Below the pieces are notes generated by a model. It searched no databases. It was not told the origin of the DNA and saw only the letters and a list, made by a program, of their open reading frames with translations. Shown piece by piece: positions 4,627 to 44,756 of a stretch of 64,000 nt of DNA (the first letter of the stretch is position 1; each line of letters starts with the position of its first letter). Both the position numbers and the translations under genes were made by a program. Origin of the DNA: Pyropia yezoensis (taxonomy: Eukaryota; Rhodophyta; Bangiophyceae; Bangiales; Bangiaceae); the NCBI GenBank assembly GCA_009829735.1, contig CM020620.1, positions 2,173,447 through 2,237,446 on the forward strand. Direction: 5' to 3'.

Positions 4627-4989
4627 TGTAGCACAATAGGAATCCGTCGCACGTCCACTCTCAGGGAACACTCACCAAGGGGGATCGGCACCAACGTCAC
4701 CGGGAGGCCAAGGTTGTTGTCCTTGGAGCACAAGCCACGGGACCAAGATGGGAGCCCAAATGGGAGGGGTTTGTTGTTCTACCTTGGCCGGCGGTGGATT
4801 CGCCGCCGGCCCCCACGTTATAAACCCTCGGAGACACTACTAACTACCCTCCACCCCAAGATGCAAGTCCCTCTGGTAATACGTAACTTATAGATACCGT
4901 GACCAGTACGAACTATCAAATTGAAAGTTAAGGGTTAGAAGTAGCCCCCCTCATATTAGGGTTACAATACGGCCAACCATATTGCTACA
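4627..4989 (-). repeat. 3' LTR of A1 (363 bp)
   Basis: Begins TGTAGCAATATGG and ends TTGTGCTACA on the minus strand, with 7-bp inverted ends TGTAGCA/TGCTACA. It contains the family's internal palindrome GGCCGGCGG/CCGCCGGCC and the promoter-like TCTATAAG. It is paired with 24397-24760. Confidence 0.95.
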
Positions 4990-5003
4990 TATCCCCCCCT
5001 TAG
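4990..5003 (-). other. Polypurine tract of A1
   Basis: On the minus strand CTAAGGGGGGGATA directly precedes the TG of the 3' LTR. The same tract precedes the A2 3' LTR, and a slightly changed one that of A'. Confidence 0.85.
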
Positions 5004-5579
5004 ATTCGGCCCGTCCTCGGGTCGAGTTGCATTCGGGTTACCGAATGTAAGTGGGTCGCGTGACCGTTTACCAGTCGGGTGGGGCTTTGCGCCCCGTCGC
5101 GACAGACACCCCTTTTCGAGGTTGTCTGAGGGGGGTGCCCCCCTTTGTGTGGTACACACACGATCCGTTTTCCGGACCGTTAAATTCGCGATGCGGGTTC
5201 TGTTCACGACCCCCCTTTCCGAGGGGTGGTGCAAGCGGATCCGCCACCAGGTGTCTGGTGGTAGGGGAGCCCCTCTCGTGTTACCGAGTGAATGGGGGCG
5301 GCCGCTCCCGCTTTTCGCGGGGGCGGTTTCGGGGTGAACCCCTCTTGGTTGCCCCGTACGGGGGTGTGGCCCCGGCCCGCCCAGGTGCCTGGGTGGAGCC
5401 CGTTCGTAGCCTCGTGGGGCGCGGGTCGACCCGCGCGCCTGCGGCGCTTCTCGTGGCCGTTGTGGTCATAAGCGCGGGCGCCCGCGCTTCCCTGGCTCGT
5501 CCGCGCGAGCGTTCCTTGTACCGGGTCGAGCCGGCCTCGGCTTTTCTGCAAGGGGCGCCCCTGCCACCCCGGTTGCACC
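5004..5579 (+). other. Leader of the A1 antisense ORF
   Basis: This 576-bp stretch lies between the polypurine tract and the antisense ORF. It is conserved in A2 and A' at the DNA level. Several G5 and C5 runs occur near 5107-5350. A frame from 5051 is open but starts with GTG and is not kept in A', so it is not annotated as a gene. The TATA-like element at 5466-5472 lies inside. Confidence 0.6.
5466..5472 (+). promoter_or_regulatory. TATA-like element of the A1 antisense ORF
   Basis: TCATAAG followed by a GC palindrome (GCGCGGGCGCCCGCGC), 108 bp before the ATG. In A2 and A' the same place has TTATAAG at 107 bp, so A1 carries a T-to-C change. The conserved spacing supports a core promoter; no transcript data were available. 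Confidence 0.45.
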
Positions 5580-7949
5580 ATGTCGGACCCCCAGGTACCC
5601 GGGGGCGAGGACGACCTCCTGCCTGAAAAGGGGGAAGAGGTGATGGTGGACGACGTTCCCGTCTCCGCCACCGCCGCCGAGTGCTTCCTAGCGAGCTCGT
5701 CGGAGGACGAGGACGACCGGGTGACCGTTCGTGTGGCCCCGGACGGCGCGCCGGGCGGGTTGTCGTCTGTGTGTAGCGGCACGACGGCTCCGTCGGGTGG
5801 CGGACAACCGCGTGCAGCGGTGGCTTCTACCGCTTCTCCTCCGGCGGCCCGGATGGCTTCTGTCGCCGGTACCGCCGTGGCTCTACCTCAAGACGGTGTC
5901 GCCGGCGTGGCGGATGGTGGTGTTGGCACCCCGTCCAGTCCGGCGGGTCAAGACGGCGCGGGTGCCCGCCCGGTTGGTGCGTCCGCTGCGGCGGGTAGCG
6001 GGTCTACCCGTGGTGCCCCCGTGGTACCCACGTCGGGTCCGGGTGGCGGCGATGCTCTGCCCGCGGTGCCGCGGGCGTCTGGTGGTCAAGGTGGGTCTAC
6101 ACCGATGGCTGTGGACTCCGGTAGTTACTCCGGGCGGGCGCCCGTCCTTCTTCTTTCTCCTCGGCCGCGTGCGACTCCGGCGCCTGCCCCTTTTCCGGTG
6201 GGGCATCCCCCGGCGCCCCCGATTCTTCCCGGTCCTGCCCGGGTTGCCCCGTTGGGTGGCGGCGTCGCCGTGGCGGCGGGTCAACCCGCCATGTCGATGT
6301 TCGACTTGGTGGCTCGGGTTCGAGGCCTGACTGTGCAAGAGTCAATGGAGTCCGATGGGCGGATGCGGGTGGACTTCCACCTGCCCCATCCCCGAGGAGA
6401 GTCCTCCCGGCGCGTCAAGGTGGACCCCAGTTGGGAGCGGGAGTTGGTGCGGCTGGTCAACCAGCCGAACGCGGTGCGAGTGGAACACCATTGGATCCTG
6501 AGTCAGCCGGACGACCGGCATGCGCTCCTCTGGCGTACTCGGGTGGGACGGGGTGAGGTCTACCTCGACCCCAACTTCGGGGTATGCGACCTGATTGCTC
6601 CCGCGTTGCCGCGGGAGATTAACTACCCGGCTAGTGCTCGGGGGATTGCGGCGGCGGCGGAGCCGGTTGCGTTTGGGGAGACGGTGGGCAGTACCGGTCG
6701 GTATCCCGACTTCGATTATTACCCGGGGGTATCCCCGTATCTGTCGTTGACGGCTCCCTACCCGCCTATGGCGGGGTTGAAGTCGGCGTCGAGCTGGCGA
6801 CGTAACCATGGTGTCATGGCGGATGCGTTCCGCACGGATATAACGTGTGCGTTGCAGACCGGCAACGGTCGTGCGCCGGTATACACTCCCGTGCGCCCGC
6901 CGCTATGGCAGGAGGGGTGGGAACCTGCCCCTGCTTTCCGATTTGACACCGGCTCCTGTCTCCGATACTTCGGGAGTGTGTTGGCCTCCCGGCCGGTCCA
7001 CCCGTTGCAGGGTACCTTCACCCTTGAGGTTACCCTCGGGCAGGCTTCCTCCTTCTTGCTGTCCGTCCGCCGGCAGGGGCGCCTGTTTCATCTTCCGACG
7101 GGTGTCCTTCGGCACATCGCGCAGTTGGGCGTGGACCTGATAGCTGCCAAGACCGGGTTGGCCCGGGAGTTCGAGGCCCTGCTGGCTGTTCACGATGCCG
7201 TGAACTGGGCTGGGGTGTTGGCCCTTCCCCCGTACCGGGACCCGCAGGCTGGAGCTACCCCCTTGCCTCGTCACTCGTTGCGTGTCCGGCGTACTCAGCC
7301 GGGTGAGCCCAGTTGCCATGGGTGGGCGTCCACCGAGGCTGTTGCTGACCTGGGTATTCCCATGGTTATCCATGACCCTCTTCAGGTCCTTGCCCCGTGG
7401 TTCGGTAACCCGATACCGGCGGCGGTTGGCCGTCGTCCCCGAGAGTGGGGCTCTGCGGGTGGAGAGCGTGAGGTGTCCCGTCGTCGGGCGGAGTCCCGCC
7501 GGGGTTACGGTGGAGCCCCTTCGGTAGGGTCCTACCGAGCCTCGTATCAGGTGCCACCGGCTCCGGTGGTAGCCGTGTCGGCTCCTGTGGCTCCTCTGGC
7601 TGCGCCAGTGTCACCTCCCGCCCCTGTCCTACATGACGGGGGTCCCCGTCTCTGGTATGAGGGCGTTGACGCCCTTGTTGCCCGCGCAATGCGGGAGGGT
7701 CTCTCTGTTAGCTGGGGGGATATCCCCCCAGGTGCTGCGCTGGTTGGGTCAGCGCGTTGCTTCGGTGGTGTGCATGACCGCCTCCAGAAAGCTCTGGAGG
7801 ACGTGGAGGCTGGCCGCAGCACCCTCGTCCAGCTATGCACCGAGGTAACTCGGGTGATTGACCGTCGTGAGATTGCCGACCGGTGGAGCACGGAGGTATA
7901 CGCGCTTACGCGTGAGTGGCCTCCCTCGGGCAGTGGGTCTACCCACTGA
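5580..7949 (+). CDS. Antisense third ORF of family A (789 aa), intact copy
   Basis: This protein is encoded on the strand opposite to gag-pol, between pol and the 3' LTR. It starts MSDPQVPGG in A1, A2 and A'. Order: acidic Ser/Glu/Asp patch (about residues 40-50), long Ala/Pro/Gly/Ser linker (60-235), a conserved globular region (about 238-600) containing GRMRVDFHLPHPRG, HHWILSQPDDRH, YFGSVLAS (about 463) and RRQGRLFHLP (about 496-505), a Pro/Ala/Val linker, and a helical C-terminal segment from about 690 (GGPRLWYEGVDAL onward). The FGSV and R-G-LFHLP block matches the antisense ORF of element B. There is no zinc finger, signal peptide, clear membrane segment or polymerase motif, so an env or capsid role is not supported. 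I do not recognise the family. The same 2370-bp length is kept in A2. A nucleic-acid, regulatory or silencing-related role is speculation. Confidence 0.85.
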   Translation: MSDPQVPGGEDDLLPEKGEEVMVDDVPVSATAAECFLASSSEDEDDRVTVRVAPDGAPGGLSSVCSGTTAPSGGGQPRAAVASTASPPAARMASVAGTAVALPQDGVAGVADGGVGTPSSPAGQDGAGARPVGASAAAGSGSTRGAPVVPTSGPGGGDALPAVPRASGGQGGSTPMAVDSGSYSGRAPVLLLSPRPRATPAPAPFPVGHPPAPPILPGPARVAPLGGGVAVAAGQPAMSMFDLVARVRGLTVQESMESDGRMRVDFHLPHPRGESSRRVKVDPSWERELVRLVNQPNAVRVEHHWILSQPDDRHALLWRTRVGRGEVYLDPNFGVCDLIAPALPREINYPASARGIAAAAEPVAFGETVGSTGRYPDFDYYPGVSPYLSLTAPYPPMAGLKSASSWRRNHGVMADAFRTDITCALQTGNGRAPVYTPVRPPLWQEGWEPAPAFRFDTGSCLRYFGSVLASRPVHPLQGTFTLEVTLGQASSFLLSVRRQGRLFHLPTGVLRHIAQLGVDLIAAKTGLAREFEALLAVHDAVNWAGVLALPPYRDPQAGATPLPRHSLRVRRTQPGEPSCHGWASTEAVADLGIPMVIHDPLQVLAPWFGNPIPAAVGRRPREWGSAGGEREVSRRRAESRRGYGGAPSVGSYRASYQVPPAPVVAVSAPVAPLAAPVSPPAPVLHDGGPRLWYEGVDALVARAMREGLSVSWGDIPPGAALVGSARCFGGVHDRLQKALEDVEAGRSTLVQLCTEVTRVIDRREIADRWSTEVYALTREWPPSGSGSTH

Positions 7950-8427
7950 GGAGTGTTATTGTTTGTACGGGAGAGGGACCCGGTGGGCCTTATGGTAGCC
8001 GGGTAGTAGTGAGTGTAAACTCATCCCCTACGGGGGCATTGCTTGCCTCTGTTTGCTGCCCTGGGGAGTACCCCTTCTGGCTCAGTGGTGCCTTGCCTCC
8101 CGTCCAACTTCTTCCCGTTGGTCCATGCTTGGGGAGGTCATCCTCCCTCACTTTGTGTCTTGGCTTGGGGAGGTCATCCTCCCGTGTAAGCCCCCTAGTT
8201 ACTTCGATATTATCGGAGTTAGCCTTTACCTTTAAGTTAACTTATTAAGGCTCAGGTTTTACTTAGTTACCTAAGCTTGACTCAACTTAGATGCCTAAGC
8301 TTGGTTCGACTTAGAAACCTAAGTCTGATTTGACTTAGAAACCTAAGTCTGCCGTAGCCATGTCACACCCTACTTAGTAGGTATAAGCCTCACCCCCCAA
8401 CAGCCGAAGTCGGTGTCGGTTGGGTTG
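7950..8427. other. Convergent spacer between antisense ORF and pol of A1
   Basis: About 480 bp, AT-richer than the ORFs on each side. It holds a GGGGAGGTCATCCTCCC duplicate near 8131-8184 and four tandem palindromic units at 8261-8356. Both convergent transcripts would have to end in or cross this spacer. Confidence 0.7.
8261..8356. repeat. Four tandem 24-bp palindromic units (A1)
   Basis: Units begin at 8261, 8285, 8309 and 8333. Each contains ACTTAG, three or four bases, then CCTAAG, so each can fold back on itself on either strand. The array recurs at 35041-35130 in A2, and a decayed trace lies just after 27417 in A'. The position between convergent ORFs suggests a two-way 3'-end or termination signal. 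Confidence 0.75.
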
Positions 8428-11400
8428 TTACAGTAGGCGTCGTCGCCTCATGTAAGGCATCAGGAGTTGGCGGGGTATATTTGCCGCCTGTTCCCAGGTG
8501 GGTGAGTCGTATCCGACCCACATAACCTTGACGTACCAGGGTCCTGGTAGGTCCGGGTCGGTGTGTCCGACCACGCTCTCTACTTGGTATAGAATCCCAT
8601 CCGGTCCCACCGGGTCATCTGACCGGTGGGTTGTAAGAGCTTCATGTAGCAACCCAGCCGGTACCGGCTGAGGCTGTTCCGGCTTCGGAGCCGGTGTGAC
8701 ATCATTCACACTGATGCGCTGGATCTCCGTATCGGAGTGTAAGATAACAGAGTGGTCATCTCTGTGGAGAATCTGGTACGGTCCCTTGACCGGTTGCATG
8801 AGCTTGTTCCCCCGGAACTTCTGGTGTCTGATGTAGACCCAGTCACCTGTCATCAGGGTAGCGTTGCGCACCCGTAGTCGGGCGTCGAAGTTCTTCTTGT
8901 ATCGAAGTTGTGTTCTGTCAAGGGCACCCTTGAGCTTAGGAATCATCCACGATAGCTTGGACAACCAAGCTAAGTGGATCCGTTCGGCCGGTCGGCCCTT
9001 CGGTGTATCATACCGAGTGCACCTGCCGGGTGGCAGCGTCAGGTTACCGACGCCCATCGGCATGACCCACTCCAGCGGAGCGATGTTTGTGCTCCGATGT
9101 GGCCTGGCATTGTATGCCAGGGTGAGTACGGATAGAAGCCTGTCCCAAGTGTTCGTGTGCTCTGCCACGTAGCACTGTAGCATCTTGACGATGGTGCGGT
9201 TGAACCGCTCCACCTGCCCGTTTGTTTGCGGGTGGTAGTCGGATGCCCGACGTGGTTCGATACCGAACATGCCCAGGACCTTAGTGCAGAATGCTGACGT
9301 AAGGTTTGCTCCGTTGTCGGAGAGGAGTTGCTTCATGACTCCGTATGCACTGATCCAGTGGTCAACCACTGCGTTCATAATCGTGTATGCCGTATCATTC
9401 GGGATGGCTGCCGCTTGTGACAGCTTGGTGAATCGGTCAGACATGACCAGGATGTACCTGTTCCCTTCTTCCGTTACCGGAAGTGGCCCGAGTATGTCGA
9501 TAGCGACTTGCTCGTTGGGCCCATCGGGTGGGAATAGCTTCATAACAGACGCCTGCCTATGTAGACTCATGCGGTTACGTGCACAGGGGTGGCACCCCCT
9601 TACGTGGTCGACCACGTCGACGGCCATTGCTGGCCAGTAGAAGAACCTTCGCATTGCTGCGAACATACGTGAACCCCCCGGGTGTCCGGCTGTAGGGTTC
9701 TCGTGTTCTCGTTCCATGACGGCTTGCCGGAAGGACACGGGAACCACGACTTGATGTCGTCCATCGGCGGGTGCCCGCCGGTATATGAGTCCGTCTTCGT
9801 TCTCGGAGAAGATGCCGGCCGTACCGGCCAGGAGGTTAGCGCGATGGCGTCTACAGTCATCGTCGTTGGCTTGTGCCTCGCGGAAGTCCGCGAGGGTCAG
9901 TGGGCATGCTCGGTGTGCCATGGTATGGTCAACCATACCTTGGGTAGCGTTACCCACCATGCAGACCGCTACCACCGGGATGTCCTCGTCCACCGGGCGG
10001 GTATCCCCGCTCGGGGTGTCGAGGCGAGAAAATGCGTCTCCGAGATGGTGGGATGACCCAGCCATATACACGGTACGGTAGTCGTGCTCGGCCATTTTTA
10101 GCCTCCATCGGGCTAGCCTCCCATGGCTATCGGAATCCTTGTCACCAAGGTTGAGGAGCCATCGTAGGGGTTCGTGGTCGGACCTCACGATGAACCTGGA
10201 GCCCTCCAGGTATGGACGGAGCAGTTGCACTGCCCATATAACTCCGAGGCATTCACGCTCGGTGGCACTATAGTTACGCTCAGCCGGGTTGAGTGTCCGG
10301 CTGAAGTATCCTGCCGGACGTAGATCCGGGATAACGTTATCGGTACCGATCAACGTCTCTCCCTGTAACAGGGTGCATCCCACTTGTGTATCGCATGCAT
10401 CGACATCGATGACGATGGTACCCCGTCGGTGCGGTAACGCAAGGACGGGTGGGGATAGTAGGGCTCGCTTCAGCGACTCGAATGCCTCCTCTTCGCTAGG
10501 CGAAGGGGTTTGGAGTACCTTGGGCAAGGTACTGCTCGTAAGAACCGTTAACGGTTTAGCAATCCGAGCGAAGTCCTTGACGAACCGTCGGTATACGTTG
10601 CACATTCCCAGGAAGCTCTTGAGCTGCGTCTGGGTGTTAGGGAACCGGGCATCCCGGAGTGCCCGGGTATTGGCTTCGAGTACCCCTAGTTTACCAGGGG
10701 TTATCTGGTGGCCCAGATACTCGACCGTCTGTTGGAAGAAGGCGCACTTCTTCAGACGCAGGGTTACCCCGGCGTCCCTCAAGAGGGTGAGTACCTCGTC
10801 AACGTGTTGCACATGGTCATCCATGTTACTCGAGAAGACGATGACGTCATCGAAGTACACTAGGCAGTTACGCCACTTCACCCCCGACAGTATAATGTCG
10901 ATAGCCCGCTGGAATGTAGCGGGGGCGTTGGACAATCCGAAGAGCATCCTTAGGAACTCGTACACTCCACTGTGACAGACGAATGCCGTCTTGGGGATAT
11001 CCTCGTCCGCCACTGGGACCTGCCAGTATCCGGCATTGCAATGGATGGTGGTAAACACCGTAGCTTCCCCCAGGGAGTCGATGCATTCATCCATCCTTGG
11101 TAAAGGGTATGAGTCTTTCTTGGTAACCAAGTTGAGGCGTCGGTAATCGATGCAAAACCGAGGGGTTTGATCCTTCTTCGGTACGATAACGACTGGGGCA
11201 CCCCACTCCGACATCAAAGGTCGTATCACCTTCGCTTCACTCATCCTCTTCACTTCTCCATCAACGATCTCTCGTTGCATAGGTCCCGCTCGGTGCGGTT
11301 GTGACCGGGCGGGGCGTGCGCCTGGTACCAGGTCAATACGATGTTGGGTTGCCCCAATGGTACCCAAGGCCCCGCCTGTCCACATGACGTCATGCTTTCT

Positions 11401-11527
11401 TAGCATTCGTCGTACCCCTTCGGCTACGGAAGGGGGAAGGTGGTCGAGGTCAGCCTCGGCCAGGGCCTTCAGTGCTTCTTGGTCCTTTGGCGGTATGTCC
11501 GCCGAAGGCGCCGATGGGTCAGGCTTC
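8428..11527 (-). pseudogene. A1 pol, 3' part: RT, RNase H, integrase, chromodomain
   Basis: This continues the pol started at 21979, after removal of element B (the duplicated CCGTC lies at 11528-11532). Read in order: reverse transcriptase (RFCIDYRRLN, HCNAGYWQ, FGLSNAPATF, VYFDDVIVFSS), RNase H (DVDACDTQVG, TERECLGVIWAV, RSDHEPLRWLL, GDAFSR), integrase zinc finger (H...H, CHPCARNRM), catalytic core (AIDILGPLP, LLSDNG, VERFNRT), a GPY module and a C-terminal chromodomain (VMWVGYDSPTWEQ). As in A2, the first RT catalytic aspartate is His (codon 11041-11043 on the minus strand, IHCN where B has LDCN) and the PFGL motif is LFGL. The frame is otherwise open, so the inactivating event is the insertion of B. 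Confidence 0.9.
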
Positions 11528-11532
11528 CCGTC

Positions 11533-12000
11533 TGTGGCAAAAACCACTCGCACACACAGTACCCAAGTTGGGGCGGTGTGCGAGGGCTGCCTCCCGTGTC
11601 GGGGGAACCGGAAGAAGTGCAAGTCGCACACACTCTATCCCTGTTGTGGGGCAATCCCCCCACGGACAAACAAGAAGATGGTGTGTGGTCCAACAGTTTC
11701 TTGGTCGGGACGGGGACGCAGGGCCAAGCCCCGCTGTCCCTCCCCTTATCCCCCCAGGGTCCACTCAGAATCTCGCCACTCAGAATCTCCCACCCCAGCA
11801 CCTGCCCACCGGGCCACACGAAAATTCAAGACGATAAATGCAGAAAACCCTCAAATCCAAGTTGGATTTACTACTAAGCTAACTATCCCGAACTTAGGGA
11901 ATATGGACCCAAATGCAGGGGGAGGAACGGATCAGGCTAGTGGCCTGCCGCCCCTTGCATGGCACGTGTTGCCCCCTACCTGGGGGTCAATACTGCCACA
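11533..12000 (-). repeat. 3' LTR of B (468 bp)
   Basis: On the minus strand it begins TGTGGCAGTATTGACCC and ends TTTTTGCCACA, so TGTGGCA/TGCCACA form inverted ends. The copy at 20445-20912 looks identical base for base. Confidence 0.97.
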
Positions 12001-12016
12001 CTCCCCTCTCCTCAGT
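12001..12016 (-). other. Polypurine tract of B
   Basis: ACTGAGGAGAGGGGAG on the minus strand directly before the TG of the 3' LTR. Confidence 0.75.
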
Positions 12017-12343
12017 TCCGACCGACCCGGTCGGCCCTGTGAGGGGGTGCGTAAACGCACGTCTCGGCGTTGGGGGGGGGACGCGACTTGCTGTCCCCCC
12101 TTGAGTACGTAACGCGGATGTGGAGGCGGTCACGTTGGCCGCCCCTCTCCTCAAGCTTGCCCACTTGGCAGCTTGCTCACCTCGGTTCACACCTCACCAC
12201 CACCACCACTTCTCCTTCACCTTACACGGGGCCACCCCACGCTGGGGAGGCCACCCGTTTACCCACGATCCGAGTCCCCCTCAACTCGAGGCGGGTCTCG
12301 TGCCGCGATAGCCAGGACGTCTCTCCCCAACTTGGGGAGAGCC
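12017..12343 (+). other. Leader of the B antisense ORF
   Basis: About 330 bp between the polypurine tract and the ATG at 12344. The reading frame is open upstream as far as about 12173, but no ATG lies in it there. No clear TATA box was seen. Confidence 0.5.
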
Positions 12344-14287
12344 ATGGCGACTCCGGGAGTGGAGACGGACTCTCTCGATGAGCGTATGGAGGACACCTCC
12401 TACGGTGCAGCGCCTGCCGGGACTTCCGGCGGGGGCTCCGCGATCGCTCCGGGGGGTGGGACTCCCGCGTCACCCGGCTTTGGGTTGACGGCAGGATCTC
12501 CCCCGGAGGCGGGACAAGTTGTCCCGCGTGAGGCCTTGGGGCGGTGGTTTTACCCCGCTTGGCCTCTGTATGAGGAGGGGTTGACTGTTCTTCGCTGTGG
12601 CCGACTCGGCGCAGCGATGGGTCGGGTATGGGACCGCCTACGGGAGAAGTATCCCCGTAGGGTCGGGTTCCCTGCCGGCTTCAGGACGGACCAGTTTGCC
12701 TTCCTGGACGACGAGGAGGTCGAGGACGTGCAGCGGGCCAAGGCCATGGTGGACCGCGGGGGAACTATCCCGGGTCCCGGCGACTTGCCGACCTTCACTT
12801 GGGACGCGGTGGCAACTCGCCCCCCGTACCTTCACGAGGCCGATCCGCACACTCATCACTTTGATGTGCGGATGGAGAAGGACTTCCGGCGAGGTCCCTA
12901 CTTGGTGACCTCGGCTCAACTTGAGTTTCCTCAGCAGTCTGCTGCCAGTAAGGAGCAATACTACCCGAAGAAGCCCGAGTGGTGGCCTCAAGTTGAGGTC
13001 CCCTACGGGTTCCCGGCATTGTTGCCACGGTTGCTTGACCACTTCGGCTCCGTCATGTTGACGGCTGGCCCTGATCATCTGGTGTGGGCCATGTTGGCCA
13101 CCCAGTGGCTCCTCGAGGTCATGTCGACCTGGGTGTCATGTGTTCAGCGGCGGGGGATGCTCTGGCATCTCCCCCTCCGGCTCATCCAGGGTTTGGAACA
13201 GCTCACCCCTCAGCTAGTTGCTGAGGGGTGCTCGTCAGGACAACTCACTCTACTTGAGGAGATGCTCCGCCTCCACAAGTTTATCGAGTGGGAGAGCATT
13301 GAGCACAAGTTGCGCCGCCCCACTCGGGGGCCCAAGGACGATGGCGCACTTCGCCAGTTCGTGTGGGTCGCTCGTGAACTTCACGACGGCCGTGTGGTCC
13401 TACGAGAGGGGTTGGGCATCGGGGACTACCCGTATGCCCCGGGGGTGGATCGTCACACTGCGCCACCCCCGGACAAGCCCATAGTTATGGCTGTGCCCTC
13501 ATATGATGACCATATGACTCAACCTACTGCGGGGGCCCCAAGTCGGGGTCGCAGTTACACCCGGGTACCGCCACCTCGGCGTGCCCCTCCGCTTCCTCCT
13601 GTTCCTTTCCAGCCTCACGGGAACATCCCGATCAGCGTGGCCGTGGAGTCATCCACACCGGTGTCTCCCAACTTGGGGGCCACCCTCCTGACGGTATACC
13701 CCAAGTTGGTGTTACCGCCCACGCCTCTAACCTCAGAGATGATGATCACCACGTTGGTGCGCACCATTTCCTGGTTGGCCGCGTCGACCGCAACCCTCCA
13801 AAGTTCCGAGACTCCTCAACTTGAGGAGCGCGTTCGTACTGCAGTGGCGACCGCGAGTTGCGAGTCGGTGGCGGAGTTTATGACGGCCGAGTTGGCTCGC
13901 ATTGGGGCTATTATGCCCCAGCCAACCCCACTTGGGCGTGGCAAGCGTCGTGCGAGCCGGGCATACTCGCCTCCTCGCCGTCGTCGCCGACACTCGCGGC
14001 GCTCTCCTTCCGTATCGGAAGACGAGTTGTCTTACTCCGTTTCGGAGTCCTCTACCCCGTCGGAGACGGAGTCAGTCCAGCGTCTGCGTCGCAAACTTGC
14101 GCGCAAGACCAGGCAGAAGAGTGGCCACGGTCTGCGCCACTTGCGCGACCGTGAGGGGCGCGACGGTTCCGACTTGGAGCCGCCGCCCCTTCCAACGATT
14201 GGAGACCGTTATCGGCGTTGGTCTCGCCGCTCGCCTCCACGTGAGGGCGAGGGCCGTGGAGTGGGAGAGTCTAGCATGCGTGCCTAG
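12344..14287 (+). CDS. Antisense third ORF of element B (647 aa)
   Basis: Encoded opposite to gag-pol, ending 111 bp from the pol stop. The first ATG, at 12344 (MATPGVETDS), was chosen. Order: acidic and Gly/Pro-rich N-terminus (1-60), conserved region (about 65-370) with RWFYPAWPLYEEGL, FLDDEEVEDVQRA, QYYPKKPEWW, VEVPYGF, HFGSV (about 232) and RRGMLWHLP (about 267-277), a Pro-rich linker, and an Arg/Ser-rich basic tail (RRRRHSRRSPSVSEDE) typical of nuclear or RNA-binding proteins. YYPK plus VEVPYGF recurs in the family C antisense ORF (YYPK, VEIPVGF), and FGSV plus R-G-LWHLP recurs in family A. This conservation in an otherwise young, intact element argues that the protein is made and used. 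The family is not recognised. Confidence 0.85.
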   Translation: MATPGVETDSLDERMEDTSYGAAPAGTSGGGSAIAPGGGTPASPGFGLTAGSPPEAGQVVPREALGRWFYPAWPLYEEGLTVLRCGRLGAAMGRVWDRLREKYPRRVGFPAGFRTDQFAFLDDEEVEDVQRAKAMVDRGGTIPGPGDLPTFTWDAVATRPPYLHEADPHTHHFDVRMEKDFRRGPYLVTSAQLEFPQQSAASKEQYYPKKPEWWPQVEVPYGFPALLPRLLDHFGSVMLTAGPDHLVWAMLATQWLLEVMSTWVSCVQRRGMLWHLPLRLIQGLEQLTPQLVAEGCSSGQLTLLEEMLRLHKFIEWESIEHKLRRPTRGPKDDGALRQFVWVARELHDGRVVLREGLGIGDYPYAPGVDRHTAPPPDKPIVMAVPSYDDHMTQPTAGAPSRGRSYTRVPPPRRAPPLPPVPFQPHGNIPISVAVESSTPVSPNLGATLLTVYPKLVLPPTPLTSEMMITTLVRTISWLAASTATLQSSETPQLEERVRTAVATASCESVAEFMTAELARIGAIMPQPTPLGRGKRRASRAYSPPRRRRRHSRRSPSVSEDELSYSVSESSTPSETESVQRLRRKLARKTRQKSGHGLRHLRDREGRDGSDLEPPPLPTIGDRYRRWSRRSPPREGEGRGVGESSMRA

Positions 14288-14398
14288 TTGGCAGCTGCCT
14301 TTGTTGTGAGAGTGTGAGGGTTAGGGCTGTAGTTAAAAGCCACTCTGCGTACCACTTCGACTTGAAGCACTCTCTTGGCACTGTTGCTCGGCCTTCCC
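14288..14398. terminator. Convergent spacer of B with stem-loop
   Basis: Only 111 bp separate the antisense ORF stop and the pol stop. An inverted repeat CCTTCCCTCA/TGAGGGAGG straddles the pol end near 14393-14414 and could fold in both transcripts. A termination role is inferred from position. Confidence 0.4.
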
Positions 14399-20325: not shown

Positions 20326-20423
20326 GTTGGCTAACGATCCGTATGACACGGTCCAAGTCCACCGTTCCTCTGAGACAGAGGGCCCCCTACACCCGGGTGC
20401 ACCCGGAGGTAAAGTTTACCTCT

Positions 20424-20442
20424 GTCCCCTGCTGCTCCACCA
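20424..20442 (-). other. Primer binding site of B
   Basis: On the minus strand TGGTGGAGCAGCAGGGGAC follows the 5' LTR after a 2-base gap. Identical to the site of A1 and A2. Confidence 0.9.
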
Positions 20443-20444
20443 AA

Positions 20445-24395: not shown

Positions 24396-24396
24396 A

Positions 24397-24760: not shown

Positions 24761-24765
24761 CAGGC

Positions 24766-28379: not shown

Positions 28380-28380
28380 T

Positions 28381-28399: not shown

Positions 28400-28604
28400 G
28401 GGTTTCCGTCACCCTTGTGGTGACGCCGTCTTCGGCCCTGGCACACGGATAGGGATCCGGTCCTTTTCTTGTACTCGTGGTGTTGCGACCTGATCGATTG
28501 TGTTGAGTTTTTACCTTTGACTGTGATCTACTGTTACTCTCCCCAATCTACCCCCTCGCTCTCTTATTCGTGGTGATTGTTACGTCGGTTGACTGATTGT
28601 GACT

Positions 28605-34963: not shown

Positions 34964-35441
34964 CAACCCAACCGACACCGACTTCGGCTGTTGGGGGGTG
35001 ACGCTTATACCTACTAAGTAGGGTGTGACATGGCTACGGCAGACTTAGGTTCCTAAGTCAAATCAGACTTAGGTTTCTAAGTCGAACCAAGCTTAGGTAA
35101 CTATGTAGAGTCAAGCTTAGGTAACTAAGTAAAACCTGAACCTTAATAAGTTAACTTAAAGGTAAAGGCTAACTCCGATAATATCGAAGTAACTTGGGGG
35201 CCTACACGGAAGGAGGACCTCCCCAAGCCAAGACACAAAGTAAGGGAGGATGACCTCCCCAAGCATGAACCAACCGGAAGAAGTTGGACGGGAGGCAAGG
35301 CACCACTGAGCCAGAAGGGGTACTCCCCAGGGCAGCAAACAGAGGCAAGCAATGCCCCCGTAGGGGATGAGTTTATACTCACTACGACCCGGCTACCAGA
35401 AGGGTTACCGGGGCCCCTCCCCTCACAAACAATAGCACTCC
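34964..35441. other. Convergent spacer of A2
   Basis: About 480 bp between the pol stop and the antisense ORF stop, matching 7950-8427 of A1 in reverse. Contains the tandem palindromes and duplicated GGAGGACCTCCCC/GGATGACCTCCCC blocks near 35213-35263. Confidence 0.7.
35041..35130. repeat. Four tandem 24-bp palindromic units (A2)
   Basis: Units start at 35041, 35065, 35089 and 35113, each with CTTAGG, two or three bases, then CTAAGT (the third unit has CTATGT). Counterpart of 8261-8356. Confidence 0.75.
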
Positions 35442-37811
35442 TCAGTGGGTAGACCCACTGCCCGAGGGAGGCCACTCACGCGTAAGCGCGTATACCTCCG
35501 TGCTCCACCGGTCGGCAATCTCACGACGGTCAATCACCCGAGTTACCTCGGTGCATAGCTGGACGAGGGTGCCGCGGCCAGCCTCCACGTCCTCCAGAGC
35601 TCTCTGGAGGCGGTCAAGCACGCCACCGAAGCAACGCGCTGACCCAACCAGCGCAGCACCTGGGGGGATATCCCCCCAGCTAACAGAGAGACCCTCCCGC
35701 ATTGCGCGGGCAACAAGGGCGTCAACGCCCTCATACCAGAGACGGGGACCCCCGTCATGTAGGGCAGGGGCGGGAGGTGACACTGGCGCAGCCAGAGGAG
35801 CCACAGGAGCCGACACGGCTACCACCGGAGCCGGTGGCACCTGATACGAGGCTCGGTAGGACCCTACCGAAGGGGCTCCACCGTAACCCCGGCGGGACTC
35901 CGCCCGACGACGGGACACCTCACGCTCTCCACCCGCAGAGCCCCACTCTCGGGGACGACGGCCAACCGCCGCCGGTATCGGGTTACCGAACCACGGGGCA
36001 AGAACCTGAAGAGGGTCATGGATAACCATGGGAATACCCAGGTCAGCAACAGCCTCGGTGGACGCCCACCCATGGCAACTGGGCTCACCCGGCTGAGTAC
36101 GCCGGATACGCAACGAGTGACGAGGCAAGGGGGAAGCCCCAGCCTGCGGGTCCCGGTACGGGGGAAGGGCCAACACCCCAGCCCAGTTCACGGCATCGTG
36201 AACAGCCAGCAGGGCCTCGAACTCCCGGGCCAACCCGGTCTTGGCAGCTATCAGGTCCACGCCCAACTGCGCGATGTGCCGACGGACACCCGTCGGAAGA
36301 TGAAACAGGCGCCCCTGCCGGCGGACGGACAGCAAGAAGGAGGAAGCCTGCCCGAGGGTAACCTCAAGGGTGAAGGTACCCTGCAACGGGTGGACCGGCC
36401 GGGAGGCCAACACACTCCCGAAGTATCGGGGACAGGAGCCGGTGTCAAACCGGAAAGCAGGAGCGGGGTCCCACCCCTCCTGCCACAGAGGCGGGCGCAC
36501 GGGAGTGTATACCGGCGCACGACCGTTGCCGGTCTGCAACGCACACGTTATATCGGTGCGGAACGCATCCACCATGACACCATGGTTACGTCACCAGCTC
36601 GACGCCGACTTCAACTCCGCCATGGGCGGGTAGGGAGCCGTCAACGACAGATACGGGGATACCCCCGGGTAATAACCGAAGTCGGGATACCGACCGGTGT
36701 CGCCCACCGTCTCCCCAAACGCAACCGGCTCCGCCGCCGCCGCAATCCCCCGTGCACTAGCCGGGTAGTCAACCTCCCGCGGCAACACGGGAGCAATCAG
36801 GTCGCATACCCCGAAGGCGGGGTCGAGGTAGACCTCACCCCGTCCCACCCGGGTGCGCCAGAGCTGCGCATGCCGGTCGTCCGGCTGACTCAGGATCCAA
36901 TGGTGTTCCACCCGCACCGCGTTCGGCTGGTTGACCAGCCGCACCAACTCCCGCTCCCAACTGGGGTCCACCTTGACGCGCCGGGAGGACTCTCCTCGGG
37001 GATGGGGCAGGTGGAAGTCCACCCGCATCCGCCCATCGGACTCCATTGACTCTTGCAGAGTCAGGCCTCGAACCCGAGCCACCAAGTCGGACATCGACAT
37101 GGCGGGTTGACCCGCCACCACGGCGACGCCGCCACCCAACGGGGCAACCCGGGCAGGACCGGGAAGAATCGGGGGCGCCGGGGGAAGCCCCACCGGCAGA
37201 TGGACCGGTGCCGGAGGTGCACGGGGCCGAGGAGGAAGAAGAAGGGCGGGCACCCGCCCGGAGTAACTACCGGAGTCCACTGCCATCGGTGTAGACGCAC
37301 CTTGACCACCAGACGCCCGCGGCACCGCGGGCAGAGCAACGCCGCCACCCGAGCCCGACGGGGGCACCTCGGGGGCAGCAGGGGTAGACCCGTCACCCGC
37401 AGCCGCGGATGAACCACCCGGGCGGGCACCCGCGCCGTGTTTACCCGCCGTCCCGGTCGGGGTGCCACCATAACCGCCCGACACGCCGGCAACGCCGTCT
37501 TGAGGTTGAGCCGCGCCGGCACCGGCGACAGGAGCCATTCGGGCCGCCGGAGGAGTAGGGGTAGACGCAGCAGCTACCCGCGGTTGCCCGCCACCCGACG
37601 GAGCCGTCGTGCCGCTGCACACGGACGACAAACCGCCCGGAGCACCGTCCGGAGCCACGCGAACGGTCACCCGGTCGCCCTCGTCTTCGGACGAGCTCGC
37701 CAAGAAACACTCGGCGGCAGTGGCAGAGACGGGAACGTCGCCCACCATCACCTCCTCCCCCTCCTCAAGGAGGAGGCCGTCCTCGCCCCCGGGTACCTGG
37801 GGGTCCGACAT
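35442..37811 (-). pseudogene. Antisense third ORF of A2, one nonsense codon
   Basis: Same start (MSDPQVPGG), end (SGSGSTH) and 2370-bp length as the intact A1 copy. A single in-frame TGA at 36591-36593 replaces the CGA (Arg) of A1 in KSASSWRRNHG; the frame is otherwise open on both sides. Residue content matches A1: acidic patch, Ala/Pro/Gly linker, conserved core with YFGSVLAS and RRQGRLFHLP, helical C-terminus. The lesion came from a C-to-T change (a CpG site on this strand), compatible with methylation-driven decay after insertion. Whether a truncated 406-residue product is made is unknown. Confidence 0.88.
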
Positions 37812-38385
37812 GATGACCGGGGTAGCAGGGGCGCCCCGTGCAGAAAAGCCGAGGCCGGCTCGACCCGGTACAAGGAACGCTCGCGCAGGACGAGCGAGGG
37901 AAGCGCGGGTACCCGTGCTTATAACCGCACAGCTCAGCACGAGCGATGCGGCAGCGCGGGACTACCCGCGCCAGCCGAGCTACGGGGGCGCTCCACCCAG
38001 GCACCTGGACCGGAGCCACGCCCCCCCCACACGGGGTAAGCAAGGGGGGTCACCCCCAACCGCCCCCACGCAACGCGGGCAGTTCCCGCCCCCACTCAAT
38101 CGTCCACACGAGAGGGGCCCCCCTACCACCAGGCACCTGGTGGCGGATCCGCTTGCACCACCTCTCGGAAAGGGGGGTCGTGAACAGAACCCGCATCGGG
38201 AATTTAACGGTCCGGAAAACGGATCGTGTGTGTACCACACAAAGGGGGGCACCCCCCTCAGACAACCTCGAAAAGGGGTGTCTGTCGCGACGGGGCGCAA
38301 AGCCCAACCCGACTGGTAAACGGTCACGCGACCCACTTACACTCGGTAACCCGAATGCAACTCGACCCGAGGACGGGCCGAATCT
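37812..38385 (-). other. Leader of the A2 antisense ORF
   Basis: Counterpart of 5004-5579. Contains TTATAAG at 37918-37924 on the minus strand; no convincing gene. Confidence 0.6.
37918..37924 (-). promoter_or_regulatory. TATA-like element of the A2 antisense ORF
   Basis: TTATAAG on the minus strand, 107 bp upstream of the antisense ATG, the same spacing as in A' and A1. Confidence 0.5.
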
Positions 38386-38397
38386 AAGGGGGGGATA
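38386..38397 (+). other. Polypurine tract of A2
   Basis: AAGGGGGGGATA directly before the TG of the 3' LTR. Confidence 0.85.
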
Positions 38398-38760
38398 TGT
38401 AGCAATATGGTTGGCCGTATTGTGACCCTAATATTAGGGGGGCTACTTCTAATCCTTAACTTTCAATTTGATAGTTCGTACTGGTCACGGTATCTATAAG
38501 TTACGTATGACCAGCGGGACTTGCATCTTGGGGTGGAGGGTAGTTAGTAGTGTCTCCGAGGGTTTATAACGTGGGGGCCGGCGGCGAATCCACCGCCGGC
38601 CAAGGTAGAACAACAAACCCCTCCCATTTGGGCTCCCATCTTGGTCCCGTGGCTTGCGCTCCAAGGACAGCAACCTTGGCCTCCCGGTGAAGTTGGTGCC
38701 GATCCCCCTTGGTGAGTGTTCCCTGAGAGTGGACGTGCGACGGATTCCTATTGTGCTACA
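38398..38760 (+). repeat. 3' LTR of A2 (363 bp)
   Basis: Pairs with 28016-28379 and is followed by the duplicated ATATC. Confidence 0.96.
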
Positions 38761-40901
38761 ATATCCCCCCAACTAACAGAGAGACCCTCCCGCAGCTCGC
38801 GTGTAATCAGGGCTTCAACGCCCTCATACCATAGACGGGGACCCCCTTCCGGCATGACAGGGACGGAAGGAGACACAGGCGCGGCCAGAGGAGCCACAGG
38901 AGCCGATACGGCTACCACCGGAGCCGGTGCCGCCCGACACGAGGCACGGTAGGACCTTATGGAAGGGGCTCCACCGTAAGCCCGGCGGGACTCCGCCCGA
39001 CGACGGGACGCCTCACGCTCCTCATCCGTAGAGTCCCACTCTCGGGGACGACGGCCAACCCCCGCCGGTATCGGGTTACCGAACCACGGGGCTATGACCT
39101 GAAGAGGGTTATAGATAACCATGGGAATACCCAGGTCAGGAACAGCCTCGGTGGACGCCCACCGACGGTAACTGGGCTCACCCGGCTGAGTGCGCAGGAT
39201 GCGCAACGAGGGACGAGGCAAGAAGGCAGCCCCAGCCTGTGGATCCCGGTACAGGGATAGGTTCGACACCTCCGCCCAGCTCACTGCATCGTGAACGGCC
39301 AAGAGGGCCTTGAACTCACGGGCCGACCCCGTCTGGACAGCAATGGCGTCAACGTCCAGCTCCCCAATATGCTGACGGACACCCTTCGGAAGATGAAACA
39401 GCCGTCCCTGCCGACGGACGGACAACAGAAAGGAGGAAGCCTGCCCGAGGGTAACCTCGAGGGTGAAGGTCCCCTGCAACGGGTGGACAGGCCGAGAGGC
39501 CAACACACTACCGAAGTATCTGAGGCATGAGCCGGTGTCAAACCGGAATGCCGGGGCGGATTCCCATCCCTCCTGCCATAGAGGCGGACGCACGGGAATG
39601 CACACCGACGCGCGACCGTTACCGGTCTGCAACGCGCACGTCTTATCGGTGCGGAACGCATCCGCCATGACACCGTGGTTACGTCGCCAGCTCGACGCCG
39701 ACTTCAACTCTGCCATGGGCGGGTACGGCGCCGTCAACGTCAGATACGGGGATGCCCCCGGGAATTACTCGAACCCGGGATACCGGCCGGTATCGGGCAC
39801 GGTGTGCCCGAACGCAACAGGGGTCACCGAGGCCGCCACCCTCCGAGCACTAGCCGGGTAGTCAACGTCCCACGGCAACGCAGGAGCAACCAAGTCGCAT
39901 ACCCCGAACGCGAGGTTGAGGAATACGTCACCCCGCCCGATCCGGGTTCGCCAGAGCTGCGCATGCCGGTCGTCCGGCTGACTCAGTATCCAATGATGCT
40001 CCACACGGACAGCGTTCGGCTGATTGACCAGCCGCGCCAACTCCCGCTCCCAACTCGGGTCCAACTTGATGCGACAGGAGGAACCTCCACGGTAGCTCGG
40101 CGGGTGGAAGTCCACCCGCATCCGCCCGGCAGAGTCCATAGGCTCCTGCACGGTAAGGCCTCGAACACGAGCCACCAAGTCGGCAACCGACATGGGGGGG
40201 TGGCCCGCCACAAAAGCGACGCCACCACCCAGCGGGGCACCCCGGGCGGGCCCAGGAAGAATTGGCGGCGCCGGGGGATGCCTCACCGGCAGATGAGCCG
40301 GCGCTGCAGGCGCCGGTGGGCGAGGAGGAAGAAGAAGGGCGGGCGCTCGCCCGGAGTAACATTCGGAGTCCACCGCCATCCGGGAAGACACGTCTTGACT
40401 GATAGTCGCCGGCGGAACCGCGGGAAGTGCATCGTCACCACCCCGGCCCGACGAGGGTACAACGGGGACGCACGGGGTAGACCCTTCAACCGCCCCCGCG
40501 GACGAACCACCAACCGGGCGGGTACCCGCACCATGTTGTCCGGCTGTCCCGGCCGGGGTGCTGCCACGACCATCAGCAGCAGCGGCCGCACCATCTTGAG
40601 GTAGCGCCGCGCCGGCACAGGCGACAGGAGCCATCCGGGCCGCCGGAGGAGTCGGAAGAGGAGCCACCACACGCGGTTTACCGCCCCCCGACGGCGCCGT
40701 CGTGCCGCTGCAAACGGACGACAGTCCGCCCGGCGGGCCCGCCGCCGACACGCGGACGGTCACCCGATCCTCGACGTCCTCCGACGAGCTGGCGAGGAAG
40801 CCCTCGGCCGCGGTGGCAGCGACGGGAACGTCGTCCTGCATCACCTCCTCTTCCTCAAGCAGGAGGTCGTCCGTGCCCCCGGGCACCTGGGGGTCCGACA
40901 T
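38761..40901 (-). pseudogene. Antisense third ORF of A', N-terminal and central part
   Basis: It starts MSDPQVPGG at 40901 and shares the acidic patch, linker and conserved core with A1, but is clearly more diverged than A1 is from A2 (for example FHPPSYRGGSSCRIKLD for FHLPHPRGESSRRVKVD). One in-frame TAA at 39765-39767 stands where A1 has a Tyr codon. A2 is inserted near the C-terminus at the codons for SWGDI; the remainder is 28015-27785. The divergence within an otherwise open frame gives a useful third sample for testing selection on this protein. Confidence 0.88.
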
Positions 40902-41473
40902 GGTGGATCCGGGGTGGCAGGGGCGCCCCGTGCCAAAGAAGCCGCAGCCGGCTCGACCCGGTACGAAGAATGCACACGGACGAGCCAGGGAAGCGCGGGC
41001 GCCCGCGCTTATAACCACACAGCCCGGCACGAGCGATACGGCGACGCGGGACGACCCGCGCCAACCGAGCTACGAGGTCGCTCCACCCAGGCACCTGGGT
41101 CAGGTCCACGCCCCCACATGGAGTAATCAAGGGGGGTCAGCCCACAACCGCCCCCGCGACACGCAGGCAGCCCCCGCCCCCACTCACTCGTCCACACGAG
41201 AGAAGCCCCCCTACCACCAGACGCCTGGTGGCAGATCCGCTTGCACCCCCCCCCGGAGAGGGGGTCGTGACATGAAAACCCGCATTGGGAATTCAACGGT
41301 CCGGAAAACGGATCGTGTGTGTACCACACAAAGGGGGGCAACCCCTCAAACAACCCCAAAAAGGGGTGTCTGCCGCGACAGGGCGCAAAGCCCCACCCGA
41401 CTGGTAAACGGTCGCGCGACCCACTTACATTCGGAAAGCCGAATGCAACTCGACCCGAAGACGGGCCGAATCT
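40902..41473 (-). other. Leader of the A' antisense ORF
   Basis: Counterpart of the A1 and A2 leaders, with TTATAAG at 41008-41014 on the minus strand, 107 bp from the ATG. No gene supported. Confidence 0.6.
41008..41014 (-). promoter_or_regulatory. TATA-like element of the A' antisense ORF
   Basis: TTATAAG followed by a GC palindrome (GCGCGGGCGCCCGCGC), as in A1. Confidence 0.5.
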
Positions 41474-41485
41474 AAGGGTGGGATA
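41474..41485 (+). other. Polypurine tract of A'
   Basis: AAGGGTGGGATA, one change from the A2 tract, directly before the LTR. Confidence 0.8.
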
Positions 41486-41847
41486 TGTAGCAATATGGAT
41501 GACCGTATTGTGACCCTAATATAGGGGGACTACTTCTAACCCTTAACTTTCTAATTGGAAGTCCGTATTGGTCACGGTATCTATAAGTTACGTATGACCA
41601 GCGGGACTTGCATCTTGGGGTGGAAAGTAGTTAGTAGTGTCTCCGCGGGTTTATAACGAGGGGGCCGGCGGCGAATCCACCGCCGGCCATGGTGGAACAA
41701 CAAACCCCTCCCATTTGGGCTTCCATCTTTGTCCCGTGGCTTGCGCTCCAAGGACAGCAACCTTGACCTCCCGGTGACGCTGGTGCCGATCCCCCTTGGT
41801 GAGTGTTCCCTGAGAGTGGACGTGCAGCGGTTCCCTATTGTGCTACA
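41486..41847 (+). repeat. 3' LTR of A' (362 bp)
   Basis: Family A LTR with more substitutions than the other four copies. The next base, 41848, is family C integrase sequence. Confidence 0.93.
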
Positions 41848-42602
41848 TAGCTCCACTTGACTTTGTCACCCCAAGGCGGCTGACCAACTTCTCCCTGGAA
41901 AGAATACCAGACGGTCCTGAGCCTTCCCTAAAGCCGGGCCCCAAGGCAAAGGACAAGTTCCTGGAACAACTGAAGCTCCTTCTCCCACGAGTCAAGGAGT
42001 CAATCGCGAAGACCCGGGAGCGATACAAGCGGGACTATGACAACGGTGTTCGGGAGAAGAACAAGGAACTGGGTGGTGGCGACTGGTTTTTCGTGGACAA
42101 TCACAGCAAGACCCGGGGGAAGCTGGACTCCAAGACGGATGGGCCCTATGAAATCCTGAGCACGGACGGCTGGACGTTCCTTCTAGACGTGGATGGCTCT
42201 CCGTACCAGGTGAGCAGCGACCACGTCACTCGAGCTCCACCGCCACGCAAGCGGGACCTGACCCGGCGCAAGCATGCCGCAGTACCCTGGTTATCCCAAG
42301 AAGAAGGCCGAGAATACGTCTACGACAAGGTTGTAGACCATGCCTGGATGAAGGGACGCCTGTACCTGCGCGTACGCTAGTTCGGGTTCAACCCGGCTGA
42401 TAATACCTGGGAACCCGATAACCGGTTGCCCATTGCTGATGCCTGCGCCTACACGCGGCGGAACGGGATCTACTGCACTCCTGTGGCCAGAGCTGGCAAG
42501 ACCCTGGAGTCGGACTCGGAGGATGACGAGAAGGAAGGGGCTGATCAGGGTTTGCGGGACGAGTCGAGCTCGGCCGCAACGGACGCGGAACAAGAATCAT
42601 AA
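41848..42602 (+). pseudogene. Family C pol end: integrase C-terminus and chromodomain
   Basis: It begins in the integrase tail (IAPLDFVTPRR; compare A IAPLEWVMP and B VPLAFVTPRR), then a basic helix (KTRERYKRDYDN), a GPY module (TDGPYEIL) and a chromodomain (EYVYDKVVDHAW, LYLRVR). A TAG at 42378-42380 replaces the chromodomain Trp found in B (VRWFGY); the frame then continues with FGFNPADNTWEP and an acidic tail to a TAA at 42600-42602. No integrase catalytic core is present. Confidence 0.9.
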
Positions 42603-42762
42603 GAAGAGGGAACGGGTGTATCATGGAAAACAAGCAATACAAGCAAGCACCCGTTCGAGCAACTCTTCTCTTCGTCTCCTCCCGCCTCCCTTCTCCCGTG
42701 ACTCCCACCTTCCTTGCCCTCAATTATTACTCCCGGCGCGCGCGCTGCGCCGCGGGAGCGTC
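42603..42762. other. Convergent spacer of C
   Basis: 160 bp between the pol and antisense ORF stops. Short, with no tandem palindromes visible. Confidence 0.5.
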
Positions 42763-44756
42763 CTACAGCGCCTCTTCAGCAGCACGACGGGACCCAGAGG
42801 ATGACGGGATGACGTAGTAAGGCGGTCGAGACGACTCGACGTACTCCGCCAACGGAACAGCACAAGTGGCCGCCGGATGCTCCCGCTCCTCAAAGTACAC
42901 CCGCCGACGATCCTGGAAACTCGTGAAGGTCCCTGACCAGCGCTGGGCGAAGCCATGCCGGGTCAAGGTCGCAAGAAGCTCACCAACCACCGTACTGTCC
43001 GACATCTGGCCGCTGTCCGCACAAGCAAACACCTGGTCGACCACGTCATTCAAGACGCTAGCATACGTGCCCAACACTAAGGAAGACCCGACGCCCTCAA
43101 CCTGCACCGGAAGTCGGCCCAGCTGATCCTTGATCATGCCCACGTCGTACCGGTCGTACGCCGGGCCACCTTGCGTCAGGTGCCAGTCGGGCACCCGGAA
43201 GCGGGAAAGGCATAGCGTCGGCGCCGGAATCTCAACCCGACCTGAGGACGCCACACCCGGACGGCTAGAACCGATACCGGAAACAGGAGTACCCAACTCA
43301 AGGGTAGGCACCAAACCGCCACCAGCCGTAGAAGTCGCACGAGCAGGAGCGGCCGGAGTAGTAGAAGACCGGATGGTACCGCCAAGAGCAGCGCCAAGAG
43401 CCGCAGCAGGCAAACGCGGTGCCGGAGGAGCCGGAAGCACCGGTGCAGGAAGGGCCTGGCGCGCAAGCGCCGGCGACGGCGAAGGCGAAGCTACCGGTGC
43501 AGCAGGAGTAACCGGAGGAACTTGAACACTTGCAGATGCCCGACCGACCGCCGCAGCCCACCCCGACTCTTGTACCGGCGGACCAGGTGGCAGGAGGTCC
43601 AAGGCGGTCGGCGCAGGAAGACCCCACAGCTGCGGCCACGCCGGCAGCGGCGTTGCCAGCTGCACCTTGGCTTGAGAAGTCTGGTAGACCTCCTGCACCC
43701 AACCCGAACCATCCCGACGCCGACTATTCTGGTCCGTGATCGAGCTCAAGAATGTCCGGTCGTGCACCGGGAGTGGACGCCACAAGTCGATCATCGCCTG
43801 GAAGAGTTCCTTGTACTCCATATCCTGGTTGCAAAAGAAGTCCACGGTCAGCTTCTCGACAATCCAGACCATCATCAGGTCCGAGAGAAGCCAGAGCCGG
43901 TTGGACACCAAGACCTCGTGGAGCCAGTGGTTGGCCGCCAAGACCGTCATCTCGGAAGTGTATATCATGTACGGGATTGAGTGGAAGAAGCCCTTGATCG
44001 ACGCCTGGGTCAGAGCGTCCTGGAATTAGCAGGTGAAGGGGATGCTCGACGGTGCGAACCCGACCGGGATCTCGACTTCATGCTGCTGCGGGATGACCTT
44101 GGGGTAGTACGCCGCCCGGTCGGCCTTCTCCAGCTTCCAGAACTCTTGCTGTACTTCCGGGTCAAGAAGGGCGGCTCCAGAGCGACCATCCCCGGACGGG
44201 GATCACAGGTCAAGTTCCTAGGTCCCTTGAGCGCCTCGTCCCAAACCTTGAGCGCCCGGCGGACGTAATCCTCCTCCTCCGGCCACCGGAGCACGGACGC
44301 AGACCCTCGGCGCTCGGTCAAGGGAAGATCCAGCACCAGCGCAAAGGCGAGGTCCTCGAGGCGGGCAACCCAAGACGAACCGGAAACGCTCTGGGAGCGG
44401 TCTAGAGCCAGGCGCATCTGATCCGCCGTGTACAGGCGCGTCTTGTCCATCTCGGTCAAGACCCCGCGCTGGAGCTCCTTACGCCAGATGGCCAGGCAGT
44501 CCTGCTGGCACCGAACCGCGCTGACGTTCCCGACCACTGTGGAGGAGCGCCGGGCCTCCAGGGGATCGTGACAGAGAAGCATCTCCGGGAGACCCACCGG
44601 GGGGGTCTCGACCGGGCGCGACGCCGGAGCCGGGGGCACTTGATGCGCCTCCTCCGCCGTAACGACCGGCGTCCGCGCCGACACCCGAGGAACCGGAGGC
44701 AGGAGAGGGGCACGATTACCCGAATTCTCCTCCGCAGAGCCCGCCACCGGATTCAC
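42763..44756 (-). pseudogene. Antisense third ORF of element C, degenerate
   Basis: Same place and orientation as in A and B. The frame is open from about 44756 (no convincing ATG; the first codon of the open stretch is GTG). Order: Pro/Ala-rich N-terminus, region with CLAIWRKELQRG and LRWPEEEDYVRRALKVWDEA, then a frame change near 44190. In the second frame it reads AAYYPKVIPQQHEVEIPVGF, which matches B (QYYPK, VEVPYGF), then a TAA at about 44028, then NHWLHEVL, a long Ala/Pro linker and a C-terminal segment with GGPAYDRYDVGM and HGFAQRWSGTF comparable to the A C-terminus (GGPRLWYEGVDAL, IADRWSTEV). Damage is two events, so this copy is dead, but it shows that the ORF predates the split of A, B and C. 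Confidence 0.8.

Follow-up and report, generated by a model that had tools for sequence, protein, structure and literature searches.

Additional open reading frames (ORFs) lying antisense between pol and the 3' long terminal repeat (LTR) are described for the retrotransposons Grande, RIRE2, Retand and PvRetro13 as well as for the fungal element Boty (PMC7264820). The antisense protein of Grande is reported there to be nuclear and to have its own promoter, and in Retand a TRP28 protein is encoded antisense to gag-pol in all representative clusters but two (PMC11963269). For such antisense accessory genes of plant LTR retrotransposons, no function is established (PMC7264820, PMC11963269). Here we analyze a stretch of 64,000 nucleotides from the bangiophyte red alga Pyropia yezoensis (contig CM020620.1, positions 2,173,447 to 2,237,446; hereafter the window), in which a nest of LTR elements, termed A1, A2, A', B and C, was resolved by self-comparison. 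These elements carry an antisense ORF opposite to gag-pol, which is a real protein-coding gene under purifying selection.

The arrangement resembles that of Retand in flowering plants, where a long region between pol and the 3' LTR holds an antisense ORF in nearly all recently active clusters (PMC11963269) and tandem repeats are frequent in this region; A1 and A2 likewise possess a short tandem array. Unlike the elements described here, which show weak chromodomain matches, Retand belongs to a non-chromovirus lineage, and its TRP28 protein (PF04195) finds no match among the antisense proteins of the window. Grande, with gene23 in maize, and RIRE2 of rice share the antisense ORF between pol and the 3' LTR, and Boty of Botrytis and Sclerotinia places such an ORF at the same site outside plants (PMC7264820). 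These likenesses are drawn from descriptions of the elements, and for Boty both the host and the element family differ. By analogy only, human T-cell leukemia virus (HTLV) encodes an antisense protein, and the promoter of its gene lies within the 3' LTR, a case that PMC7264820 and PMC11963269 cite as a regulatory analogue. According to PMC2864245, the text of which does not contain the word "antisense", the green and red algae screened at the time lacked Tcn1-like chromoviruses. In searches of open-access papers for cases from red algae, Porphyra, Pyropia and algae at large, no title or abstract concerned such an antisense gene in red algae, in agreement with an earlier sequence-based note on this DNA (the original prediction), which knew of none in hosts of this type. 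Antisense genes in this position are already known from plants and fungi; the present protein family and its red algal host did not turn up in the open-access papers searched.

The antisense ORF is situated between the pol stop and the 3' LTR in A1, A2, B and C, as judged from pol and LTR in A1, A2 and B and from the pol end in C, and was placed by homology in A'. An antisense gene is found at all five 3' ends of the window and is uninterrupted at two of them, namely A1 and B (Table 1). The original prediction of an ORF of 650-790 codons in each element therefore holds for place and strand, not for length, given that A2, A' and C are interrupted; in C the frame consists of the pieces 44801-44013, 44202-44029 and 44025-42766. 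The longest antisense stop-free runs comprise 825 (A1), 724 (B) and 420 codons (C), compared to maxima of 453, 416 and 411 codons in 1000 dinucleotide shuffles of the respective pol-LTR interval. The observed runs were reached in 0 of 1000 shuffles each, the margin being small for C. All other frames over the ORF contain stops (6-24 in A1, A2 and B, 5-24 in the main part of A').

To quantify constraint, the ratio of non-synonymous to synonymous substitution rates (dN/dS) was determined in the antisense frame by the Nei-Gojobori method with 95% bootstrap intervals. For the whole gene, we obtained 0.467 (0.32-0.71) for A1/A2, 0.376 (0.30-0.47) for A1/A' and 0.336 (0.27-0.42) for A2/A'. These values are not near 1, in line with the selected function that had been proposed. 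Within the core (residues 235-560), the ratio is 0.277 and 0.267 in the pairs that involve A' and 0.450 (0.21-1.02) for A1/A2. The linker (residues 561-690; 0.80, 1.12 and 1.02 across the three pairs) and the C-terminus in A1/A2 (1.05, with a wide interval of 0-2.3) show no constraint, so that constraint along the gene is not uniform. As yardsticks, A1/A2 comparison yields 0.167 for pol and 0.416 for gag, the latter with few changes. The sense mirror frame gives 0.51 (A1/A2) and 0.46 (A1/A') and contains 19 (A1) and 20 (A2) stops; its ratios are lowered because it shares third positions with the antisense frame.

Between the families, the A1 and B antisense proteins show 24% identity over 230 columns (BLASTP E 1e-10, profile E 1.4e-6). 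B and C align over 145 columns (profile E 6.2e-5) and the A and C cores over 84 columns (E 0.011), and the three core alignments are co-linear around one common block. A and C additionally align over a C-terminal segment of 65 columns (E 0.0066). All of these E-values hold for single comparisons. The core scores exceed the best of 12 column-shuffled decoys (57.5 vs 23.9 for A-B, 44.4 vs 19.0 for B-C, 29.1 vs 23.0 for A-C), as does the A-C C-terminus the best of 30 (20.6 vs 17.3), and reversed-sequence controls for A-B (24.8) and B-C (18.1) fall well below the real scores. The shared motifs quoted in the original prediction are all present in the proteins: YYPK and VE(V/I)P-GF in B and C, FGSV and R-G-L-(F/W)HLP in A and B, and a C-terminal GGP segment in A and C. 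By these comparisons, the antisense proteins of A and B are homologous, and so is, more weakly, that of C. The proposed old homology across three families is hence borne out for A-B and B-C, while the direct A-C relation is weak. For comparison, Gag of A and B shows 25% identity over 220 columns and Pol 39% over 1401. The antisense protein has diverged like Gag (24% vs 25%), which argues that the gene was present in the common ancestor of A and B; the homology among all three families, weaker for C, makes it older than their split.

Relatives were sought in other sources by protein searches, in each of which only the approximately 8000 candidates with the most shared words were scored. Among these, the A1 core found six relatives. 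Two are about 95% identical; the other four are hypothetical proteins from Pyropia vietnamensis, with 53-58% identity to A1 over the aligned core, and one of the four represents a cluster with 19 members. With the second half of C, two uninterrupted proteins were retrieved (75% and 61% identity), of which P0010 spans both break points of C. B retrieved one relative only, with 97% identity. These relatives are known from protein sequences; the antisense position is seen here only in the elements of the window. Searches of viral contigs and of prokaryote genome contigs gave 4 and 25 pattern matches, respectively, none of which is a relative.

The A1 protein begins with an acidic N-terminus and contains segments in which Gly, Pro, Ala and Ser abound; its core is denser and its C-terminus compact. 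The B protein ends in a basic Arg/Ser-rich tail. No Pfam family scored above its cut-off for the antisense proteins; sub-cut-off matches to DUF6214 (3 of 16 members, E 0.014) and MFS_5 (1 of 16, E 0.29) were taken as chance. Two sequence searches of the PDB gave no convincing match: one had no hit at all, and the two hits of the other, at E 0.37, lie in the low-complexity N-terminus and were attributed to chance.

A candidate place for an antisense promoter is the interval that separates the 3' LTR from the start codon of the antisense ORF. Its first 200 bp, adjacent to the LTR, rank with the most strongly conserved sequences between A1 and A' (92-94% identity in 150-bp windows, similar to the LTR itself, as compared to 79-92% in the ORF). 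Moreover, a TTATAAG-like box (TCATAAG in A1) is found about 110 bp before the antisense ATG in A. LTR-adjacent conservation and the TATA-like box in A point to a promoter of its own, in a suggestive manner only, with the caveat that these 200 bp also include sequences that the genomic RNA requires. At the other end of the gene, CTTAG-N4-CTAAG palindromes, mostly 24 bp apart, form an array of four in A1 (Table 1) and of three in A2 (35040-35129). With spacers of 3-6 allowed, the window contains eight such palindromes, the last of them near A' at 27417, compared to 0 or 1 in each of 20 mononucleotide shuffles. Terminators or protein-binding sites are possible roles.

We propose that the antisense ORF is an accessory protein gene of a red algal Ty3/gypsy lineage, which pre-dates the split of A, B and C and probably encodes a trans-acting regulator expressed from its own promoter, a proposal in which we place roughly even confidence. 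According to this model, transcription of the gene would start at a promoter immediately internal to the 3' LTR and run opposite to that of the genomic RNA. In the product, an acidic N-terminus of low complexity would be followed by a conserved core of some 300 residues, to which A and C add a small C-terminal segment that is related between them. This protein would act in trans, probably in the nucleus, and regulate transcription, silencing or integration of the element. The regulatory role is modelled on proposals for Grande gene23, the Retand TRP28 proteins and the HTLV antisense proteins, and the Arg/Ser-rich end of the B protein would be compatible with nuclear or nucleic-acid binding.

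Several observations weigh against this proposal. The antisense gene is known here from sequence alone, and its frame does not stand out by codon usage: in A1, the correlation with gag and pol is 0.50-0.66, compared to 0.52-0.80 for a shifted frame. No DNA- or RNA-binding domain is recognized in the antisense proteins, and the Arg/Ser-rich tail is confined to B, the C-terminal part of which matches neither the A nor the C C-terminus when the segments are compared. The TATA-like box of A is a single motif match, and none is evident by eye in B. Finally, the A-C core score of 29.1 is little above that of its reversed control (27.9), so that A and C are linked mainly through B and by co-linearity.

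A first alternative is that of a particle protein, i.e. a second structural component, translated from the antisense mRNA, that would assemble together with Gag. In its favor, the protein diverges between A and B at the pace of Gag, as does speak for it the A1/A2 ratio of 0.47, which is near that of gag (0.42) rather than pol (0.17). Nevertheless, profile comparison with the three gags of the window yielded no similarity, a Pfam scan of the antisense protein found no zinc knuckle, and the highest 19-residue mean hydropathy of 1.54 (A1, B and the second half of C) leaves no strongly hydrophobic stretch for an envelope role. An antisense transcript would furthermore be an odd source for a bulk product needed alongside Gag, and we thus consider a particle protein unlikely.

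Two further explanations appear to us still less probable, and about equally so. The antisense transcription itself could matter, with double-stranded RNA tuning or triggering silencing and the ORF being incidental. Genomic RNA should traverse the antisense gene to reach the 3' LTR, so that sense and antisense RNAs can pair in this convergent arrangement, and an RNA role is discussed for plant elements (PMC7264820). It would, however, leave unexplained the codon-level constraint and the amino-acid conservation across families and species, and could as well coexist with a protein role. Alternatively, the gene might be a remote relative of TRP28, tracing back to one antisense gene that either existed before red algae and plants diverged or moved from one group to the other. 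Place, orientation and a similar kind of element favor this idea (PMC11963269), but PF04195 was not matched in Pfam scans of the antisense proteins at a threshold of E 10. The printed TRP28 residue spacing is no better met than in shuffles, the best match being reached by 34 (A1), 17 (P0010), 188 (B), 200 (second half of C) and 200 (P0006) of 200 shuffles. That the gene was captured from the host, or is left over from another inserted element, and is carried without benefit would agree with the lack of a known domain. This is very improbable, however, given its presence in three families, the Gag-like divergence, purifying selection and the four P. vietnamensis matches, all hypothetical proteins, among which the 19-member cluster speaks for a family of repeats and not for one individual host gene.

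Table 1. Coordinates of the LTR elements, antisense ORFs and flanking features in the window.
Feature	Position	Strand	Remarks
A1 antisense ORF	5580-7949	+	intact, 789 codons
B antisense ORF	12344-14287	+	intact, 647 codons from ATG; stop-free from 12173 or earlier
A2 antisense ORF	37811-35442	-	one in-frame stop, 36591-36593
A' antisense ORF, main part	40901-38761	-	one stop, 39765-39767
A' antisense ORF, tail	28015-27785	-	severed from main part by A2 insertion
C antisense frame	about 44801-42763	-	one frame change and one stop at 44026-44028
A1 interval, 3' LTR to antisense ATG	4999-5579	+	candidate place of antisense promoter
Tandem palindrome array of A1	8261-8351		between antisense stop and pol stop
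Element A1	4627-24760	-	LTRs 4627-4998 and 24397-24760; 5-bp target duplication CAGGC; B inserted within
Element B	11533-20912	-	5-bp target duplication CCGTC; sits inside A1
Element A2	28016-38760	+	5-bp target duplication ATATC; inserted in A'
A'	38761-41848 (3' part); 27635-28015		second segment lies on the opposite side of the A2 cut
A' 3' LTR	41477-41848	+	
C pol end	41849-42380	+	C-terminal part of integrase; similarity to B pol

Pol of A1, A2 and B shows the domain order of Ty3/gypsy elements, with reverse transcriptase, RNase H and integrase, and the same 20 bases, the expected primer binding site, follow the 5' LTR in A and B. The B LTR pair is identical at 469 of 469 compared bases. 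The pol ends of B and A2 match the PF00385 chromodomain with 23.5 and 14.9 bits, both under the Pfam cut-off of 25.1, and the C pol end shows no match to this Pfam family. The designation as chromoviruses is accordingly plausible, yet not firm. A pol of A' was not identified, its orientation following from its LTR and the homology of its ORF to A. C is a 3' fragment lying directly against the A' LTR, from about position 41849 on. The end of its pol (41814-42377, + strand) shows 37% identity to B pol (185 columns, E 5.6e-32) and 33% to A pol (138 columns, E 2.4e-20). A 99-bp segment (2076-2174 vs 43559-43657) within a duplicated 242-bp stretch (1840-2413) matches a portion of the C antisense frame at 81% identity and is perhaps debris of another C-type copy.

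A1 and A2 resemble mosaics (5580-11532 vs 31859-37811; 21976-24177 vs 28599-30800). Their synonymous divergence (dS) amounts to 0.019 in gag, 0.064 in pol, and 0.206, 0.055 and 0.009 in the N-terminal part, core and linker of the antisense gene, and this unevenness suggests recombination between copies. A further element, E, lies on the + strand with a gag-like ORF (2814-4379) and pol (25610-27417) and was interrupted by insertion of A1. A pol fragment 97% identical to E pol is located at 240-1402 (- strand), within 1-1402. The end of E pol coincides with the start of the A' 3' end, and the two may represent one recombinant element or two fragments brought together. Outside the nest, 46773-48461 (- strand) is a PiggyBac-type transposase ORF, open over 562 amino acids (DDE_Tnp_1_7, E 7.2e-36). 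The GC-rich right part of the window contains probable host genes with matches to Glyco_transf_61 (50214-52919, - strand, E 7.8e-10) and DNA_pol_phi (56817-59852, - strand, E 5.8e-9). Rfam and tRNA scans of the window gave no match.

Returning to the antisense ORF as a proposed accessory regulator gene, we tentatively entertain a more far-reaching version, towards which we are inclined to doubt rather than belief. In this version, the regulator would have arisen in an ancestor of red algal Ty3/gypsy elements, independently of TRP28 in plants and of the cases in fungi, and several families would have retained it from before their split. A promoter of its own would lie at the 3' LTR, and the element itself would contain its target sites, e.g. 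the palindrome array at the convergent 3' ends. If true, antisense accessory genes would be a recurrent solution of Ty3/gypsy elements across kingdoms. A similarly placed gene without detectable relation to TRP28, and with Gag-like conservation across families of a red alga, would indicate that an antisense gene at this site has repeatedly been useful to such elements. The locus supplies a testable protein family, comprising the A, B and C types and the P. vietnamensis relatives, far from flowering plants, and a natural system of convergent transcription in which protein and RNA roles would be separable.

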